Shown here: piece by piece, positions 2,017 through 9,703 of the stretch
Layout of the letters: the number at the start of each line of letters is the position of its first letter
Position numbering within the stretch: position 1 is the first letter of the stretch
NCBI RefSeq assembly: GCF_018325905.1
Contig: NZ_AP021901.1
Location: 3,038,001-3,102,000 of the forward strand
Reading direction: 5' to 3'
DNA: 64,000 nucleotides
DNA from: Pseudomonas sp. St316
GTDB lineage: Bacteria > Pseudomonadota > Gammaproteobacteria > Pseudomonadales > Pseudomonadaceae
Notes under the pieces: model-generated
Databases searched by the model: none
Seen by the model: only the letters and a program-made list of their open reading frames with translations
What the model was told of the DNA's origin: nothing
Program-made: the position numbers and the translations under genes

Positions 2017-2040
2017 TGTACAAATCTAAATTCTTGTACA
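2017..2040. promoter_or_regulatory. Paired TGTACA-N12-TGTACA operator, left operon
   Basis: Two perfect TGTACA hexamers at 2017-2022 and 2035-2040 are separated by exactly 12 bases, 37 bp before the first gene of the + operon. An identical arrangement precedes the convergent operon at 8497-8520. From memory, the P. putida light regulon controlled by PplR/LitR-type MerR regulators has the consensus T(G/A)TACA-N12-TGTA(C/T)A. The match is seen in the sequence; the regulator is inferred and is not encoded in this window. Confidence 0.75.
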
Positions 2041-2077
2041 ACTATAAGGGCTCCCTTGATAAACGGGTAACGCCTTC

Positions 2078-2644
2078 ATGGCCCGGTCGTTCGCGCTCAG
2101 GAAAAGCCTGGTCGCCATAGCGTTTTGCATGTTTTCGCTTTATGGCACCCAAGCCTTGTCGGACTGGCGCGACGTATTGCCAGGCGCGCGCCTGGTGGGG
2201 CAAGCCGATTTCGACTGGTATGGGTTCGACCTCTATCAGGCCAGGCTCTGGAGTGCGGCCGCCGCGCCAAGCCTGGAAACGGCGTTTGCCCTGGAACTCA
2301 ATTACCGACGCGCCATCGACAAAGAATCTTTGGTCGAAACGAGCCTGAAGGAAATGCAACGCCTCAACGGCGCGCCCCTGGACGCCGGGCGCCGCGACGA
2401 ATGGGCCGCTCAAATGCGCCGTGCCTTTATTGATGTGAAACCTGGAAGCCGTATCACTGGCCTGTACCTGCCGGGGCAGGGCTGTCGTTTCTATGTGGGC
2501 GAAACACTGTCTCTTGCGGTTACAGACCCGCGATTCGCCCGGGCTTTTTTTGCCATCTGGCTCGATCCTCGAACTCGAGAGCCAAACCTTAGAAATCAAT
2601 TGCTTGGAACAAAAATATCAAGTGAAGGGAGAGGAAATCAGTGA
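2078..2644 (+). CDS. Chalcone isomerase-like exported protein
   Basis: 188 residues. It starts MARSFALRKSLVAIAFCMFSLYGTQALSDW, a probable signal peptide with cleavage near ALS. The body (PGARLVGQADFDWYGFDLYQARLW, ALELNYRRAIDKESLVETSLKEM, LPGQGCRFYVGE) is typical of the bacterial chalcone-isomerase-like fold (chalcone_3), found in proteins that bind fatty acids rather than flavonoids. A periplasmic lipid-binding role is an inference from the family. First gene of a tight three-gene operon preceded by the TGTACA pair. The next gene starts inside its last codons (GTGA overlap at 2641). Confidence 0.75.
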   Translation: MARSFALRKSLVAIAFCMFSLYGTQALSDWRDVLPGARLVGQADFDWYGFDLYQARLWSAAAAPSLETAFALELNYRRAIDKESLVETSLKEMQRLNGAPLDAGRRDEWAAQMRRAFIDVKPGSRITGLYLPGQGCRFYVGETLSLAVTDPRFARAFFAIWLDPRTREPNLRNQLLGTKISSEGRGNQ

Positions 2645-3180
2645 GACATTTTTTGATGGCGTCGCTGCTGGTGCTAGGCCTGACCAGTTGCGGGAATGTA
2701 AATGTCGAACGTTATGCCGACCAGCAACCCCGGCTGGATCTGGAGCGCTTCTTCAGCCAGCCCGTCAAGGCCTGGGGAATTTATCAGAAGCGCTCGGGCG
2801 AAGTGATCAAGCGCTTTGAGGTGGACATCTCCAGCCGACATGAGGGAGGGGACCTGATTCTCGATGAGCGCTTTCTCTACAGCGACGGCAGCCGCCAGCG
2901 AAGGGTCTGGACGCTGACCCCCGAGCGGCCCGGCCTGTGGCGTGGTCGCGCTGACGATGTGATCGGCCTGGCCCGAGGCGAAGTGGCCGGCAATGCGCTG
3001 CGCTGGCGTTATCGGTTGAAACTGCCGGTCGATGGCTCGACCTACGAGGTGGACTTCGATGACTGGATGTACCTGATGGACGAGGACACGCTGATCAACC
3101 GCTCCAGCATGAGCAAGCTGGGTGTCGAATTGGGCCAGGTGACTCTGTTTTTCCGTCGTCAGGCGGTGAGTTCGCCATGA
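2641..3180 (+). CDS. DUF3833 family lipoprotein
   Basis: 179 residues with a GTG start that overlaps the upstream stop; GGGAGAGG a few bases before acts as ribosome binding site. The N-terminus MRHFLMASLLVLGLTSCGNV contains a lipobox (LTSC), so it is probably a lipoprotein with Cys17 as the lipidated residue. The remainder (RLDLERFFSQPVKAWGIYQKRSGEVIKRFEVDI, DDWMYLMDEDTLINRSSMSKLGVELGQVTLFF) matches DUF3833 as I know it. The family has no proven function but recurs beside CFA synthase, DUF2878 and DUF1365 genes in Proteobacteria, as here. It is translationally coupled on both sides. Confidence 0.82.
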   Translation: MRHFLMASLLVLGLTSCGNVNVERYADQQPRLDLERFFSQPVKAWGIYQKRSGEVIKRFEVDISSRHEGGDLILDERFLYSDGSRQRRVWTLTPERPGLWRGRADDVIGLARGEVAGNALRWRYRLKLPVDGSTYEVDFDDWMYLMDEDTLINRSSMSKLGVELGQVTLFFRRQAVSSP

Positions 3181-3482
3181 ATTTGCAGGCGCTGACCGAG
3201 TTGGCCGTCGAGGGGCGGATCCATGAACTGGAGTTGCTGTCGCTGGAGGGTGGCATCTACATATTGCGCGCCCGACTGGACGGTGGCCTGCGTACGTTGC
3301 TCGATGAGTCTGGAAAGACATTGCATATACGTTCCACCACCCATTTGCGTGAGCTGATGCGTTTCGTCCCGCGGCTGCCCTGCACGCTGGTGCAACAGGT
3401 TGTCCATGATGAGATGTGCGGCCAGCGTGAGGGGCCGATCGAGCCGCTGCGCATGCCGCTTTTCCTTGACGAGCCCTGGTAG
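3177..3482 (+). CDS. DUF6482 family protein
   Basis: 101 residues, starting in an ATGA overlap with the DUF3833 stop. The sequence (IHELELLSLEGGIYILRARLDGG, HLRELMRFVPRLPCTLVQQVVHDEMCGQ) is a small soluble protein without signal peptide or membrane segment. I recognise it as the DUF6482 type common in pseudomonads; no function is known. Its place as the last gene of the TGTACA-controlled operon suggests it works with the same lipid or stress response. Four tandem copies of the pentamer AGTTC follow at 3501-3520 between the two convergent operons; no terminator hairpin is evident. Confidence 0.7.
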   Translation: MNLQALTELAVEGRIHELELLSLEGGIYILRARLDGGLRTLLDESGKTLHIRSTTHLRELMRFVPRLPCTLVQQVVHDEMCGQREGPIEPLRMPLFLDEPW

Positions 3483-3513
3483 CGATGGCGTTCCGGGGCC
3501 AGTTCAGTTCAGT

Positions 3514-4002
3514 TCAGTTCGGCTCGGCCAGACGCAGCGCCAGGGGTAGCCATAACGCCCATAGCGGGGCCAGTAACAGGGCGGTGCCAATGACCCCCAG
3601 TGGCAATGTGACGCCCGCCAGTGGCGCCCCCACGCAATAAGCCAGCGGGCCACCGACCAAACCCAGCAGTACCCCGCGCCATACCGGCCGCCTGGCCCAG
3701 GCCAGGCTATGACGCAAGCCCGTGGCAAACACCAGCCAGAGCAGCGCCAGCCAGAGCGGCAGCGGGGTTTGCTTGAATATGAACAAGCCCTGGGTGCCCA
3801 GGCTCCAGTCCAGCAACATGCCACAAAGCCCGACACGCATCACCGCAAATAGCTCTGCCCGGGGAGCAGGACACCGCCACAGGTGGACCAGCAATCCGAT
3901 GACCACCAGCGACAGCCACCACGGATCCTGCGCCCCGAGCACACAGCCCCACCAACCCAGTTGCAACCAGAGGGCATTGACGATCAGACCGGTGCGGCTC
4001 AT
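3514..4002 (-). CDS. DUF2878 family membrane protein
   Basis: 162 residues starting MSRTGLIVNALWLQ. I chose the ATG at 4002 because it overlaps the stop of the CFA synthase gene by one base (TGATG); a longer frame upstream lies inside that gene. The protein is almost entirely hydrophobic, with about five membrane segments (WLQLGWWGCVLG, WLSLVVIGLLVHLW, VGLCGMLLDWSLG, WLALLWLVFATGL and the C-terminal half). DUF2878 proteins are inner-membrane proteins of unknown function that co-occur with CFA-like methyltransferases. Last gene of the six-gene minus-strand operon. Confidence 0.8.
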   Translation of the reverse strand: MSRTGLIVNALWLQLGWWGCVLGAQDPWWLSLVVIGLLVHLWRCPAPRAELFAVMRVGLCGMLLDWSLGTQGLFIFKQTPLPLWLALLWLVFATGLRHSLAWARRPVWRGVLLGLVGGPLAYCVGAPLAGVTLPLGVIGTALLLAPLWALWLPLALRLAEPN

Positions 4003-5270
4003 CACGTACCCTGGTATTCCAGCAGAGCGGGGCGACGGGCGCCGGGCGCGGCGAAGAGCAGTTGGGCCACGCCGATGGCGCGCTCGATGAATCCACCTTC
4101 GCAGTAACACAAGTAGAACTCCCACAGGCGCTGGAAGGTTTCGTCATAACCCAACTGCGCCAATGCCTGGTGCGATTGGCGAAAGTTGTCGTGCCAATGC
4201 CGCAGTGTGCGGGCGTAGTGCGCACCGAAATCCTCGAGATGCAGGAGGTTGAGCGGCGTCTGGGTGCTGGCGGTCTTGAGCAGGATCGCCAGTGACGGTA
4301 ACGCGCCACCGGGAAAAATATGGCGCTGGATAAAGTCCACCGAGCGTCGGGCCTGCTCGTAACGCTGGTCGCGGATGGTGATCGATTGCAGCAGCATCAG
4401 CCCGTCATCCTTGAGCAGCGCGGCGCAGCGCCGGAAGTACTCGGGCAAATAGCGATGCCCGACGGCTTCGATCATTTCGATGGAGACCAACTTGTCGTAG
4501 CGCCCTTGCAAGTCACGGTAGTCCTTGCGCAACACGTGAACCTGCTGTTGCAGGCCCAGTTCTTCGACACGTCGACAGGTGTGGGTGTATTGCTCCAGGG
4601 ACAGCGTGGTCGTGGTCACCTTGCAGCCATACTGGCTGGCAGCGTAGATGGCGAGGCTGCCCCAGCCCGTGCCGATTTCCAGCAAATGGTCGCTGGGGCG
4701 CAGGTCGAGTTTGCGGCAGATATGGGCGAGCTTGTTGAGCTGGGCCTCTTCCAGGCTCTGTTCAGGGCTTTGGAACAGCGCGGCTGAATACATCATGGTG
4801 GGGTCGAGCAGGCGCTCGAACAGCGCATTGCCCAAGTCGTAGTGGGCAATGATATTGCGCCGCGAGCCGCGCCGACTGTTGCGGTTGAGCCAGTGCAGCC
4901 CGCGCAGCAGCGGGCGGCCGATGCGTGCCAGGCCGCTGTCCATGGCATCGAGCACCTCCAGGTTGGCAACGAACAGGCGCGTAACCGCCGTCAGGTCCCC
5001 GCTGCGCCAATAGCCATGGACGTAAGCCTCGCCAGCGCCGATGGAACCGTTGCAGGCAACCATGCTCCAGACCGCGTCGTCGAGGATCTCGACCTCGGCC
5101 ATCAAGGGGCTGGCCAGGTCACCGAAGCTCGATGGCTCGCCATTGAGTAGCAGCCGCAGGTGGCCGTGACGCAGGCGGCGTAACTGACCCAGCACGGCTT
5201 GCTTGAAAAAGCCTCCGTTAAAGAGGTCGCCACTACCAGTCTTGGTAGCGCTCAGGGTCGGTTCGGACAT
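4002..5270 (-). CDS. Cyclopropane-fatty-acyl-phospholipid synthase family methyltransferase
   Basis: 422 residues. The SAM-binding motif LLEIGTGWGSLAIYAA lies near residue 196, the family signature SIEMIEAVGHRYLPEYF near 263, and the C-terminal LWEFYLCYCEGGF motif is present. Enzymes of this family transfer a methylene or methyl group from S-adenosylmethionine to a double bond of membrane phospholipid acyl chains. Members in gene sets like this one may instead make methylated or furan fatty acids, so the product is open. The start is supported by AAGGATCC upstream and overlaps DUF1365 by 38 bp. Most pseudomonads carry another, stand-alone cfa gene; this one belongs to the stress-type operon. 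Confidence 0.9.
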   Translation of the reverse strand: MSEPTLSATKTGSGDLFNGGFFKQAVLGQLRRLRHGHLRLLLNGEPSSFGDLASPLMAEVEILDDAVWSMVACNGSIGAGEAYVHGYWRSGDLTAVTRLFVANLEVLDAMDSGLARIGRPLLRGLHWLNRNSRRGSRRNIIAHYDLGNALFERLLDPTMMYSAALFQSPEQSLEEAQLNKLAHICRKLDLRPSDHLLEIGTGWGSLAIYAASQYGCKVTTTTLSLEQYTHTCRRVEELGLQQQVHVLRKDYRDLQGRYDKLVSIEMIEAVGHRYLPEYFRRCAALLKDDGLMLLQSITIRDQRYEQARRSVDFIQRHIFPGGALPSLAILLKTASTQTPLNLLHLEDFGAHYARTLRHWHDNFRQSHQALAQLGYDETFQRLWEFYLCYCEGGFIERAIGVAQLLFAAPGARRPALLEYQGT

Positions 5271-6057
5271 GATTGGGATCCTTGTGAGCGGTTTGACCCA
5301 GGCTCAGGCTGCCTTCGCTGGCCTGGTGGGTGTAAAGGGGCGTACGTTTGAAAAGCAGGCGCAGGGCCTGCCAGTAAATGGCGCTGACGGTGCGCAGGCT
5401 CATCCAGGGGAAGGCCAGGACATGTCGGCGCAGCGAGGAGGCGTCGAGGGGTTGGCGCTTGAGTGCCAGGTCGGCCTCGAACACCTTGTGGCCGTCGCGC
5501 CAGTTCTCCATGCGTATGCGGATGTGCGTGGCCTGGATCAGGAACCCCATGTGATAGTCCATATCCCGGGGCAGGAACGGCGATACATGAAACGCCTTGG
5601 CCACCCTGAAGGCACAGGGCTCGCCAGGAGGCACTGGCAATACATAGTGATAGCGCTCGCGCCATGGGGTGTTGCGCACTTCGCAGAGGATCGCCGCCAG
5701 CCGCCCGTTGGCTTCATGGCAGAAATAGAAGCTCACCGGGTTGAACGACAGGCCCCAACTGCGCGGTTGGGTCAGCAGGTGAATCGCCCCTTGGGGAGCG
5801 GCGCCCAGGGCTTCGTCGAGGATCTGGCGCACGGCATCGACCAAGGGAACCCCACGGCGGGTGCGCGATGGCAGGTAGTCGCGCTCGCGCCAGCACAGGG
5901 GCGCCCAGGACCAGGGGCGCAACAGACGCGACAACCCCAGCATGTGTTCCTGTTCGGCGAGGTCCACGTAAAGCATGCCGATCGGATAGCGGAAGGCGTG
6001 GATTCGCGGCGTATGGCGCCGATGATCAATCCAGCCGCGACACACACTGCTGTTCAA
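5233..6057 (-). CDS. DUF1365 family protein
   Basis: 274 residues. Typical DUF1365 stretches are PRIHAFRYPIGMLYVDLAEQEHM near the start, LLTQPRSWGLSFNPVSFYFCHEANG near residue 100, and EVRNTPWRERYHYVLP. The family has no proven reaction. It is nearly always found beside an FAD oxidoreductase and a CFA-type methyltransferase, as here, and probably takes part in the same acyl-chain modification. The start overlaps the stop of the FAD gene (ATGA at 6054-6057) and its 3' end overlaps the CFA gene, so the three are translationally coupled. Confidence 0.9.
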   Translation of the reverse strand: MNSSVCRGWIDHRRHTPRIHAFRYPIGMLYVDLAEQEHMLGLSRLLRPWSWAPLCWRERDYLPSRTRRGVPLVDAVRQILDEALGAAPQGAIHLLTQPRSWGLSFNPVSFYFCHEANGRLAAILCEVRNTPWRERYHYVLPVPPGEPCAFRVAKAFHVSPFLPRDMDYHMGFLIQATHIRIRMENWRDGHKVFEADLALKRQPLDASSLRRHVLAFPWMSLRTVSAIYWQALRLLFKRTPLYTHQASEGSLSLGQTAHKDPNHVRTDPERYQDW

Positions 6058-7301
6058 AGCTGCTCTCCGAAATGCTTCGCCACGTGGAGCGCACTGACCA
6101 CGCCATCCTCATGAAAGCCGTTGGCCCAATAGGCGCCGCAGAAATAGCTGTGCTGATGCCCTTGCAGATCACCTTGGCGGGCCTGGGCGGCAATGGCGGC
6201 GAGGCTGTACTGAGGGTGCGCATAATTGAAGCGCGCAAGGACCTTGGCCGGGTCGACCACATCGCCCAGGTTGAGGCTTACGCAGAAGGTCACCGGGGCG
6301 TCCAGGCTCTGGAGCAGGTTCATGTTGTAGGTCACTGCGGCAGGTGCTTGCGCAGGGCCGCCGAGGCGGTAGTTCCAGCTAGCCCAGGCCTGGGGTCGCT
6401 GGGGCAGCAGGCGGGTGTCGGTGTGTAGCAGCACTTCATTGTTGGCGTAGGCCAGGGCGCCGAGTACTTCACGCTCCGCCATGCTTGGCACCTCGAGCAG
6501 GGCGAGGGCCTGGTCGCTGTGACAGGCGAACACCACTTTATCGAAATGCTCGGTGCCAGCGCTGCTGGTCACGCTTACGCCAGTGGCGTCGCGGCTCACA
6601 CGCTGCACTGCGCAGTTGAGCCGGATGTGTTCGCGAAAGGATGCACACAAGGGCTCGATATAGCCACGTGAGCCGCCCGCGATCACTCGCCATTGGGGGC
6701 GTTGATTGACCGACATGAGGCCGTGGTTGTGGCAGAAGCGCACAAAGAACTCGAGCGGAAAATCCAGCATCCCGGCTGGGGACATCGACCAGATGGCTGC
6801 GCCCATGGGGACGATGTAGTGATCGATGAAGCGCTGGCTATACCCTTGGCTGTGCAGGTAGTCGCCGAGCCGGGCGCTGCGGTCGATGCGCTGCGCCTCC
6901 AGGTCGGCGGTGGCCTGCCGATTGAACCTGAGTATGTCCCACAGCATGCCCCAGAACCGCGGCGAAAATAGATTGCGGCGGCGGGCGAACAGGCTACGCA
7001 GGGTATGGCCCTTATACTCCTGGCCGCTGGCCGGATCATGCACAGAGAAGCTCATTTCAGTGGGGCGAGACGCGACGCCCAACTGGTCCAGCAGACGGAT
7101 GAAATTCGGGTAGGTCCAGTCGTTGTACACAATGAAGCCTGTATCTACGCCATAGCGCTGCCCCTGCCATTCGACATCCACGGTGTGGGTGTGGCCGCCG
7201 ATCCTGTCGTCGGCCTCGAACAGGGTGATCTGGTGTCTGCGGGCCAGCAAGTAAGCACATGTCAGCCCGGAAATGCCGCTGCCGATGATCGCGATGCGCA
7301 T
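6054..7301 (-). CDS. FAD-dependent oxidoreductase (amine oxidase/desaturase-like)
   Basis: 415 residues. The N-terminus MRIAIIGSGISGLTCAYLLA is a Rossmann dinucleotide-binding motif, followed by the acidic end of strand 2 (ITLFEADDRIGGHTHTV). VVFACHSDQALALL and the C-terminal GAYWANGFHEDGVVSALHVAKHF are typical of the NAD/FAD-binding proteins encoded next to CFA synthases. The family is related to phytoene desaturases and amine oxidases, so a role in oxidising a modified acyl chain is plausible. It lies three bases after the SDR stop, within the operon. No membrane segment is seen. Confidence 0.88.
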   Translation of the reverse strand: MRIAIIGSGISGLTCAYLLARRHQITLFEADDRIGGHTHTVDVEWQGQRYGVDTGFIVYNDWTYPNFIRLLDQLGVASRPTEMSFSVHDPASGQEYKGHTLRSLFARRRNLFSPRFWGMLWDILRFNRQATADLEAQRIDRSARLGDYLHSQGYSQRFIDHYIVPMGAAIWSMSPAGMLDFPLEFFVRFCHNHGLMSVNQRPQWRVIAGGSRGYIEPLCASFREHIRLNCAVQRVSRDATGVSVTSSAGTEHFDKVVFACHSDQALALLEVPSMAEREVLGALAYANNEVLLHTDTRLLPQRPQAWASWNYRLGGPAQAPAAVTYNMNLLQSLDAPVTFCVSLNLGDVVDPAKVLARFNYAHPQYSLAAIAAQARQGDLQGHQHSYFCGAYWANGFHEDGVVSALHVAKHFGEQL

Positions 7302-7304
7302 GCT

Positions 7305-8060
7305 TCAAGACTCCTTGGAAGGGCGTGCCAGGCGTTGACCCAGGGCCAGCCGCCAACGGGCGGGCAAATGCCCGAGCAGACGCAGGACCTGCGTGAACAA
7401 CCATGGAAACGTAATGTCCAGCGGCCGCGCCGGCAGGCGTCGCGCGATATGGCGGGCGGCTCGTTGCGCCGACCAGCGCATGGGCATGGGAAAGTCGTTG
7501 CGTTGGGTCAATGGCGTATCAACGAAGCCGGGACTGACCAGGGTGACATCGATACCCTCGGCGGCCAGGTCGATGCGCAAGGATTCGATCAGGTAGCGCA
7601 GCGCGGCTTTGGACGCACCGTAGGCGCCGGCGCGAGGCAGCGCCAGCCAGGTGACCGCGCTGCTCACTGCCACCAGATGTGGACGCTGGCCCCGGCGCAG
7701 CATGGGCAAGGCGGCCTCCAGGCAATGGCAAGTACCCAGCAGGTTGGTGTTGATAAGCCGTTCTACCAGGCGGGTGTCGAAGTGCCCCGGCTCCAGGTAT
7801 TCGCAGGTGCCGGCATTGAGAATCACCAGGTCGAGCGCCCCCCAGTGAAGGTCAATCTGCTGGCAGATCGTGGCGACTTGGTGCGGGTCGGTCAGGTCGC
7901 CGGGTAGCACTAACATCTGGTCTTGATAGCGCGCGGCCAACGTCTCCAGTGGTTGGGTCCGGCGCGCACTCACAGCCAGGTGATGCCCCTGTTCCAGAAG
8001 GACTGCTGCCAATGCCGCGCCAATACCACTGCTGGCGCCGGTCAGCCAGACACGACTCAT
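7305..8060 (-). CDS. SDR family NAD(P)-dependent oxidoreductase
   Basis: 251 residues. The cofactor motif TGASSGIG is at residues 8-15, NAG near residue 86 (VILNAGTCEY), and the catalytic YGASK (Tyr-x-x-x-Lys) near 150, preceded by the Ser in VAVSSAVTW. It is a classical short-chain dehydrogenase/reductase of unknown substrate. It overlaps the NTF2-like gene upstream by four bases and is followed directly by the FAD oxidoreductase, so it belongs to the lipid-modification operon. The C-terminal tail (TFPWLFTQVLRLLGHLPARWRLALGQRLA) is hydrophobic/basic and may associate with the membrane. Confidence 0.92.
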   Translation of the reverse strand: MSRVWLTGASSGIGAALAAVLLEQGHHLAVSARRTQPLETLAARYQDQMLVLPGDLTDPHQVATICQQIDLHWGALDLVILNAGTCEYLEPGHFDTRLVERLINTNLLGTCHCLEAALPMLRRGQRPHLVAVSSAVTWLALPRAGAYGASKAALRYLIESLRIDLAAEGIDVTLVSPGFVDTPLTQRNDFPMPMRWSAQRAARHIARRLPARPLDITFPWLFTQVLRLLGHLPARWRLALGQRLARPSKES

Positions 8061-8479
8061 GCCAACCTCCGCTTGAGCCAGCGAATCACCGATCCAAACA
8101 GCGGCAGATGTTCGTAGAGCAGGGCGCCAGCATCGAAAAAGTCGTGATGCAGGTAGATTCGATCATTCCAACGCAGATAGCTGCAGCCTTGCAGCGCGAT
8201 GGGTGCTCCTTGCGCCAGGCGAGGATGGCTGAAATGCAGGGTCCAGCGCAGATAGCCTTCCCCGGGACCGACTTCATCGAAGGCGTGGAAGTCATAGCGC
8301 AGGTTGCTGGCGTTGGCGTACAACTGGGCAAAGTAAGTGCGCAGGGCCGGCAAGCCTTCGATCCGGTGCAAAGGGTCTTGGAACTGTATGTCGGCGCTGT
8401 AGAGCTCATCGAGCTCAGCCAGGCGACTGGCGTCCAGCTCGGCGAAAGCGTGGGCGAAACGCTGGAGGTAGACGGACAT
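8057..8479 (-). CDS. Nuclear transport factor 2 / SnoaL-like protein
   Basis: 140 residues. I chose ATG at 8479 (MSVYLQRFAHAFAELDAS) because GGAG at 8487-8490 sits seven bases upstream; the frame extends further only through the operator region. The fold signature is the sequence LDELYSADIQFQDPLHRIEGLPALRTYF, typical of the SnoaL/NTF2-like cone. Members bind small hydrophobic ligands or act as isomerases; the role here is unknown. It is the first gene of the six-gene minus-strand operon, directly downstream of the TGTACA cluster, so it is the best marker for the promoter. Confidence 0.85.
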   Translation of the reverse strand: MSVYLQRFAHAFAELDASRLAELDELYSADIQFQDPLHRIEGLPALRTYFAQLYANASNLRYDFHAFDEVGPGEGYLRWTLHFSHPRLAQGAPIALQGCSYLRWNDRIYLHHDFFDAGALLYEHLPLFGSVIRWLKRRLA

Positions 8480-8496
8480 GCATAGGCTCCGATTGT

Positions 8497-8520
8497 TGTA
8501 CAAGAAACTATTCATGTACA
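8497..8520. promoter_or_regulatory. Paired TGTACA-N12-TGTACA operator, right operon
   Basis: TGTACA at 8497-8502 and again at 8515-8520 with exactly 12 bases between, the same geometry as at 2017-2040. The proximal copy lies 17 bp upstream of the NTF2-like start codon and overlaps the likely promoter and leader. This matches the form I recall for light-responsive LitR/PplR MerR-type regulators. Confidence 0.75.
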
Positions 8521-8546
8521 AGTTTTCAGAAGCCTACTGCACGCCT

Positions 8547-8593
8547 TGTACAAATCAAAGTATTTTGTACAAGTAATTTTGCTATTTTGTACA
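8547..8593. promoter_or_regulatory. Three further TGTACA boxes upstream of the NTF2-like gene
   Basis: TGTACA occurs at 8547-8552, 8566-8571 and 8588-8593, each extended to TTGTACAA. Spacings are 13 and 16 bases, so these are not the canonical N12 pair. Five copies within 97 bp upstream of one operon is far beyond chance in GC-rich DNA and points to an extended regulator-binding array. Confidence 0.6.
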
Positions 8594-8626: not shown

Positions 8627-9703
8627 TCAAGCCCCGGCCAAAGTCGGATAGTCCGTATAACCGCGCTCGTCGCCTTGGTAGAACGTCGATGCATCAGGGG
8701 TGTTCAGCGCCTGGCCTTGTTTGAAGCGCTCCACCAGGTCCGGGTTTGCCAGAAACGGCGTGCCGAATGCCACCAGGTCTGCTTCTCCACGGCTGATGGC
8801 AGTGGCGGCGCGTTCGGCGCTGTAGCCGCCATTGGCAATGTACGTCCCGCCGAAGCGACGCTTGAGTTCCAGGAAGTCGAACGGGCCTTCGCCCACTTCC
8901 ACGATGTGCAGGTAAGCCAAGCCATAGCGGCTGAGCATTCTGGCCGTGTAGTCGAATGTCGCTTGCGGATTGCTGTCGCTCATCGAGAAGTAGCTGAAGA
9001 TCGGCGAGAGGCGAACGCCGACACGGCTGGCGCCGAAGACTTCGATCACCGACTCGACCACTTCCTTGAGCAAACGTGCACGGTTCTCGATCGAGCCGCC
9101 GTAGGCATCGGTACGTTGGTTGGTGCCGTCACGCAGGAATTGGTCGATCAAGTAGCCGTTGGCGCCATGAATCTCGACGCCGTCGAAGCCGGCCAGCTTC
9201 GCGTTGGCCGCGGCCTGGCGGAAGTCGGCGACCACACCGGGGATTTCATCGAGCTCCAGGGCCCGTGGCAGTTCATACGGCTTGAGGCCTTCGGGGGTGT
9301 AGATCTCGCCATCGGCCTTGATTGCCGAGGGGGCTACGGGTTGGGCACCGTTGACCTGTACCAAAGGATGGGAAAGACGGCCTACGTGCCACAGCTGCAA
9401 GAATATCTGCCCGCCCTCGGCATGGACTGCGTCGGTCACCTGTTTCCAGCCGGTGATCTGCTCAGGGGTAAAGATCCCTGGCGTTCTCAGGTAACCCTTG
9501 CCCTGGGCCGACACCTGGGAGCCTTCGCTGATGATCAGGCCGGCGCTGGCCCGTTGGCTGTAGTACTCGGCCATCAGGGGCGTGGCTGCATCGCCCGTGC
9601 CTGCGCGGCTGCGGGTCATTGGCGCCATGATCATGCGGTTGTTCAGGGACAGCTTGCCGACCTGAGCACGGGACAGCAGAAGATCGAGACCAATGTCGGT
9701 CAT
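8627..9703 (-). CDS. Alkene reductase, Old Yellow Enzyme family
   Basis: 358 residues. An FMN TIM barrel with NNRMIMAPMTRSRA at the N-terminus, FLQLWHVGRLSHP near residue 100, and the signature IHGANGYLIDQFLRDGTNQRTDAYGGS near 180; the C-terminal FGTPFLANPDLVERF is present. These enzymes use NADPH to reduce activated C=C bonds or nitro groups of electrophilic compounds (NemA/XenB type). It sits just upstream of the TGTACA cluster on the same strand, but the 147-bp gap holding those boxes separates it from the NTF2 operon. The closest functional link is detoxification of reactive lipid products, which is inference. Confidence 0.95.
   Translation of the reverse strand: MTDIGLDLLLSRAQVGKLSLNNRMIMAPMTRSRAGTGDAATPLMAEYYSQRASAGLIISEGSQVSAQGKGYLRTPGIFTPEQITGWKQVTDAVHAEGGQIFLQLWHVGRLSHPLVQVNGAQPVAPSAIKADGEIYTPEGLKPYELPRALELDEIPGVVADFRQAAANAKLAGFDGVEIHGANGYLIDQFLRDGTNQRTDAYGGSIENRARLLKEVVESVIEVFGASRVGVRLSPIFSYFSMSDSNPQATFDYTARMLSRYGLAYLHIVEVGEGPFDFLELKRRFGGTYIANGGYSAERAATAISRGEADLVAFGTPFLANPDLVERFKQGQALNTPDASTFYQGDERGYTDYPTLAGA

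Follow-up and report, generated by a model that had tools for sequence, protein, structure and literature searches.

Two convergent operons in the genome of Pseudomonas sp. St316 raise the question of whether the identical operator ahead of each, TGTACA-N12-TGTACA, places them under one regulator. They lie in a 64,000-nucleotide stretch of contig NZ_AP021901.1 (positions 3,038,001–3,102,000 of the forward strand); this is the window, to which all coordinates refer unless given as genome positions. The CHI operon encodes a chalcone isomerase (CHI)-like, a DUF3833 and a DUF6482 protein, while the longer ufa operon begins with an NTF2-like gene and resembles known furan fatty acid genes. Judged from sequence, the two operons probably form one blue-light regulon under class II LitR (PplR/PmlR-like) repressors and a short LOV anti-repressor, all acting in trans, a reading to which we give a probability of roughly 0.85. 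The single PplR-type regulon proposed in the preliminary description is supported by the rarity of the motif, the regulon-type genes behind its other copies, the presence of the regulators and the conservation of the operator before both operons.

The exact dyads occupy positions 2017–2040 and 8497–8520, just where they had been reported. The whole genome (6,777,545 bp in one contig, with the reversed pattern as control) contains four exact copies, two of them in the window, and the degenerate consensus T(G/A)TACA-N12-TGTA(C/T)A returns the same four sites, against none for the control. This consensus, which the preliminary description gave for the LitR/PplR regulon of P. putida, is the one printed in PMC9758184. 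With up to one mismatch there are 16 dyads, four of them exact, versus 10 for the control, and the one-mismatch matches were therefore set aside as mostly noise. In the window, up to two mismatches yield four dyads versus 0.71 expected from shuffled sequence, only the two named ones being exact. The motif is thus not a frequent one lacking functional coherence, which would have spoken against a regulon. TGTACA pairs with a spacing of 9–16 bases number eight in the genome versus two for the control, and seven of the eight sit in five promoters, three of them in that of ufa and one each in those of rudS, CHI, a TIGR02450 gene and a PAS-PAS chemoreceptor gene. The eighth pair (N16, genome position 1829626) was rejected as a LitR site, as it overlaps a LexA-like box before an open reading frame that by look is UmuD-like. 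Since TGTACA is its own reverse complement, direct and inverted repeats of it are indistinguishable. Across a genus sample of 149 genomes the consensus dyad occurs 518 times (146 genomes have at least one), versus 22 for the control.

The other two exact copies lead to genes of the same kind of regulon. The dyad at genome position 1081206 precedes a minus-strand set encoding RudS (2-thiouracil desulfurase with DUF1722), a MerR regulator with a B12-binding_2 domain (pplR1) and a DNA photolyase (phrB); the rudS promoter reads TTGACT-N16-TATGAT and the dyad lies downstream of it. The copy at genome position 4259128 precedes a PAS-PAS-MCP gene, and an N13 dyad precedes the TIGR02450 gene just upstream of this chemoreceptor gene. 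The two genes, the former encoding a Trp-rich protein, stand together at L017:5698–7447 (genome ~4257697–4259446). Close homologues of the chemoreceptor occur in three of the 149 genus genomes, the own one included (strict threshold, E 1e-150; 11 candidates scored per listed genome). All three have the N13 dyad before the TIGR02450 gene; the chemoreceptor dyad is exact N12 in two and TATACA-N12-TGTACA in the third (G035).

The preliminary description had placed the controller in trans and proposed a search for a MerR gene with a B12-binding domain. Such a gene is the one in the rudS operon: of the two matches to B12-binding_2 (PF02607) in the genome, one is this gene and the other a 1244-residue frame. 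MerR_1 (PF13411) has nine matches, among which a second LitR/CarH-like protein is encoded at genome position 1120708; it has the DNA-binding region in common with the first and is 36% identical overall. One paralogue thus carries B12-binding_2 only and the other no called B12 domain, so that the genome has two genes of the class II LitR type, with a MerR domain and without a full B12-binding domain. Both proteins have the MerR DNA-binding domain of class I LitR/CarH, which are B12-based photosensors, and weak similarity to the CarH model NF052513, but their scores of 77.7 and 81.9 bits are far under its 400-bit cut-off. A short LOV protein with the photoactive cysteine (164 residues, PAS/LOV, motif YQDCRFLQ) is encoded at genome position 1122404, with one gene between it and the second LitR gene. 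Whether LitR and the operator occur together in the genus is uninformative and was dropped as evidence, since LitR homologues at E 1e-20 are seen in 147 of 149 genomes.

The switch and its ufa target are already known from P. mendocina and, as cited in PMC9758184, from P. putida. In P. mendocina NBRC 14162 the light regulon is governed by PmlR1/PmlR2 and PmSB-LOV; the light promoter P6650 is TTGACT-N16-TATGAT, PmlR2 footprints there cover two TGTACA-N12-TGTACA sites, one over the -35 region and the other between transcription start and start codon, and light raises ufaM expression 25- to 33-fold (PMC9758184, Table 1). Pseudomonas sp. St316 matches this system in the operator consensus, the two operators at the ufa/rudS-type promoter, the rudS promoter hexamers, the gene order regulator-hypothetical-LOV and a light operon with phrB, a short-chain dehydrogenase, an FAD oxidoreductase and ufaM. 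It differs from it in that ufa stands apart from rudS-pplR1-phrB, has a promoter to itself and converges with a CHI-DUF3833-DUF6482 operon bearing this operator as well, and in that the chemoreceptor and TIGR02450 genes bear operators too; no dyad was found at the CHI loci of the P. mendocina strains (L147, L185). The PplR1-3/PpSB-LOV regulon of P. putida KT2440 shares the consensus and the targets phrB, pplR1 and ufaM (as cited in PMC9758184). The P. putida photolyase-PplR1 cluster was also raised in co-culture under unchanged illumination, which is no test of light (PMC11014904), and an article on the photolyase of P. cichorii (PMC13274461) makes no mention of an operon, LitR or MerR.

The layout of the ufa promoter resembles that of the footprinted P6650, with 8547–8571 taking the place of Site 1. 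The preliminary description had assigned one TGTACA pair to each operon; both dyads are indeed exact, but the ufa promoter has five boxes (starting at 8497, 8515, 8547, 8566 and 8588), three more than claimed. The elements of the promoter region are:

8497–8520, no strand assigned: operator TGTACA-N12-TGTACA between the ufa promoter and the start codon, like Site 2 of P6650
8531–8558, minus strand: putative promoter TTGATT-N16-TAGGCT overlapping the upstream operator (TTGATT 8558–8553, TAGGCT 8536–8531)
8547–8571, no strand assigned: N13-spaced upstream operator, comparable to Site 1 of P6650
8588–8593, no strand assigned: fifth TGTACA box, 16 bases past the preceding one (the N16 pair is 8566–8593)

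The likely start of the NTF2 gene is the ATG at 8479, which follows CGGAG at 8491–8487, rather than the TTG at 8521 given in the list of open reading frames, and the operator at 8497–8520 therefore precedes the gene. Where ufa is free-standing in relatives, its promoter often carries a pair of N12 dyads separated by 51 bp; at the site matching 8547–8571 the pairs are N12, N13 or N11, and in several relatives TTGACT-N16-TAnnCT overlaps the upstream dyad at the same place (by eye). The ufa promoter is preceded, in the same orientation, by an open reading frame (8627–9703) that by look is old-yellow-enzyme-like, also at this position in L127, L128 and L131–L133; in other species the place is held by LOV and LitR genes.

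The operator is conserved before both operons. NTF2 homologues are found in 109 of the 149 genus genomes, and the best 30 NTF2 loci, own genome included, were compared over 200 bases upstream. Sixteen have an exact consensus dyad and no phrB found in the locus, while the other 14 have phrB directly upstream and no dyad within one mismatch; there are no exceptions to this split either way, but the loci are related to one another and do not count as independent cases. In 10 of the 30 loci, all among the 16 that bear the operator, the gene immediately upstream of ufa encodes a short LOV protein. CHI homologues occur in 106 of the 149 genomes, and among the best 30 CHI loci of the genus (own included) the consensus dyad is upstream in nine and within one mismatch in 12. 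A further comparison covered named CHI loci, the best 80 of 266 relatives, over 250 bases upstream of the CHI match; the closest of these 80, at 92% and 90% identity, belong to P. brassicacearum and P. kilonensis respectively, which puts the strain near those species. Here the consensus dyad was found at 25 of 80, and at 27 of 80 with up to one mismatch. Both CHI and NTF2 are seen in 22 of the 80, and the operons are convergent in all 22. Within these 22 the CHI operator is exact N12 in 16, N11 in three and neither in three, and the dyad before NTF2 matches the consensus in 18 and lies within one mismatch in 19.

The N11 operators before CHI belong to L134, L135 and L151, and in the latter two N11 is found before NTF2 as well, as if the spacing preference had moved jointly. 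Seven of the 22 convergent loci (L139–L141, L168, L177, L182, L191) have a LOV gene together with a divergently oriented LitR gene beside ufa. The lone convergent locus in which no dyad was found before NTF2 is that of P. oryzagri (L181), where ufa lies behind phrB-pplR1-rudS; CHI-DUF3833 there converges with ufa-phrB-pplR1-rudS, followed by TIGR02450 and LOV genes, which brings most of the predicted regulon into one stretch. In L065, L067, L068, L078 and L082 a TGTATACA box and a TTGTACA box ~25 bases apart, then CGTATA(A/G)G, lie upstream of CHI with no N12 dyad, possibly as a variant operator. G046 has two NTF2 homologues, one converging with CHI ~4 kb off, so that the ufa genes, or some of them, may be duplicated there.

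The best-surviving alternative, which we nevertheless regard as unlikely, is that ufa alone is a true LitR target, with a different MerR-type protein acting at the CHI operator or that operator controlling an unrelated function. At 53 of the 80 named CHI genes no N12 dyad within one mismatch was found, and CHI is for this reason not a universal target; many CHI loci are distant from ufa, 58 of the 80 showing no NTF2 gene within the DNA compared, and the nine MerR_1 proteins of this genome offer other possible readers. However, the two operons here share one and the same rare operator, and the convergent loci keep the CHI operator as N12 or N11 in 19 of 22, with two of the three N11 cases repeated before ufa.

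Control of both operons by sigma-E/ChrR (ECF11) in response to singlet oxygen, with the dyads secondary, is considerably less probable. The preliminary description was right that similar gene sets are controlled in this way in other Proteobacteria, where the core of the sigma-E/ChrR regulon includes genes for furan fatty acids (PMC6852236), and in Aeromonas salmonicida the same six-gene operon and ChrR appear in one list of riboflavin-responsive genes, both lowered (PMC10012899). In the present genome no match to TIGR02451, the NCBIfam model of ChrR, was found at E <= 0.001 (one model, which matched one of 14 control genomes), which makes such control unlikely here, and the ufa and rudS promoters have sigma-70-like hexamers and LitR-type dyads. 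That a palindromic hexamer came to be repeated at both sites by chance is hardly credible. TGTACA alone is not very rare (12 boxes in the window versus 4.97 expected, five in the ufa and two in the CHI promoter), but the dyads are rare genome-wide and sit at promoters, the reversed control has no match before CHI (0/80) or NTF2 (0/22), and operator presence splits with phrB position in the ufa loci.

Besides the CHI genes without a dyad, several points weigh against one LitR regulon. A search for a CHI promoter by stacking 23 distinct dyads gave no convincing -35/-10 pair, the upstream ufa operator 8547–8571 has N13 and not N12 spacing, and the relatives compared are not independent (L139–L141, for example, have identical dyads). 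Of the two genomes without LitR at E 1e-20, G093 has no dyad and G123 has two, while G010 and G080 lack the consensus dyad despite having LitR homologues. Class II LitR is called B12-dependent in passing in PMC11417400, contrary to PMC9758184, according to which these regulators work without B12; the latter, as the primary work, is followed here. Finally, the Ufa-like labels were given by protein family and the order of the genes.

The two operons run tail to tail, as had been described, with stops at 3482 and 3514, 31 bases apart, and within each operon neighbouring genes overlap or almost touch. The gene families named earlier were all recovered:

2017–2040, no strand assigned: operator TGTACA-N12-TGTACA ahead of the CHI operon, an exact match in the genome scan that is conserved in relatives
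2078–2644, plus strand: CHI-like protein (Chalcone_3) with a signal-like N-terminus by eye; family search and CHI-fold model
2641–3180, plus strand: DUF3833 protein, putative lipoprotein with lipobox LTSC by eye; family search
3177–3482, plus strand: DUF6482 protein, last gene of the CHI operon; family search
3514–4002, minus strand: DUF2878 protein, last gene of the ufa operon; family search; the reading frame is open to 4125, and the start is put at 4002 because of the overlap with the stop of the preceding gene
4002–5270, minus strand: CFA-type methyltransferase, UfaM-like (CMAS, E 1.1e-86)
5233–6057, minus strand: DUF1365 protein, UfaO-like; family search, UfaO carrying DUF1365 (PMC7380195)
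6054–7301, minus strand: FAD oxidoreductase (Amino_oxidase), UfaD-like by family and gene order (PMC7380195)
7305–8060, minus strand: short-chain dehydrogenase (adh_short); family search
8057–8479, minus strand: NTF2/SnoaL-like protein (SnoaL_2), first gene of the ufa operon; family search

The earlier label of lipid modification stands for the long operon, where UfaM-, UfaD- and UfaO (DUF1365)-type genes occur together by Pfam family and by gene order compared with PMC7380195; it can be narrowed, as the operon fits furan fatty acid synthesis. Rhodobacter sphaeroides has its furan fatty acid genes RSP1087-1091/ufaM under sigma-E/ChrR (PMC7380195, PMC6852236). The methyltransferase, FAD desaturase-like and DUF1365 genes are common to both organisms, while the controller and the accessory genes differ, and the Rhodobacter ufaM (RSP2144) lies apart from the operon (PMC7380195). 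The product of 2078–2644 has the CHI fold (chalcone isomerase/CHIL/FAP) by model; searching PDB sequences with an alignment of CHI proteins returned a single match, CHD_buttress (E 0.014), and was set aside in favour of the fold comparison. In Erwinia amylovora a DUF3833 gene adjoins a CFA-type gene (PMC8465259). The gene immediately before the CHI promoter (887–1942), which has the same orientation, encodes a LacI-family regulator with a Peripla_BP_4 domain.

From these observations we infer LitR binding, a light response, the enzyme activities and a role for the CHI operon, as follows. In the dark a class II LitR repressor would sit on TGTACA-N12-TGTACA, at the ufa promoter on one operator overlapping the -35 region and on a second between transcription start and start codon. 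In blue light the LOV protein would bind the repressor, which would leave the DNA, and both operons would be transcribed. The long operon would then make furan fatty acid from the 18:1 chains of the membrane through methylation by UfaM, desaturation by UfaD and oxygen insertion by UfaO/DUF1365, with the short-chain dehydrogenase, NTF2-like and DUF2878 proteins as probable accessories. The facing operon, with its CHI-fold, probably exported protein, putative DUF3833 lipoprotein and DUF6482 protein, may handle or protect envelope lipids.

Sumi and colleagues reportedly described, in 2020, 19 light-inducible genes in P. putida KT2440, a list outside the scope of the literature searched; in that literature no tie of CHI-like, DUF3833 or DUF6482 proteins to LitR or light in Pseudomonas was found. 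The CHI operon, the TIGR02450 gene and the chemoreceptor, likewise not found there, are predicted to be further members of the regulon. If so, three little-characterised families (bacterial CHI-like proteins, DUF3833 and DUF6482), the TIGR02450 protein and the chemoreceptor would be tied to a defined photoreceptor-repressor switch, and their function would be testable with light. Similar furan lipid genes would have come under different controllers, sigma-E/ChrR in Rhodobacter, as published, and LitR/LOV in Pseudomonas, where ufa has its own operator when, and among the 30 loci only when, it is not behind a photolyase gene. A more tentative and wider possibility is that blue light sets off one programme, comprising synthesis of furan fatty acids, their movement or shielding in the envelope by a CHI-fold lipid carrier of the periplasm and a DUF3833 lipoprotein, photoprotection of tRNA and DNA, and a soluble PAS-PAS chemoreceptor. 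The CHI-like, DUF3833 and DUF6482 proteins might in that case carry out transport or late steps in the biology of furan lipids that have gone unrecognised, and the chemoreceptor would link light to behaviour.

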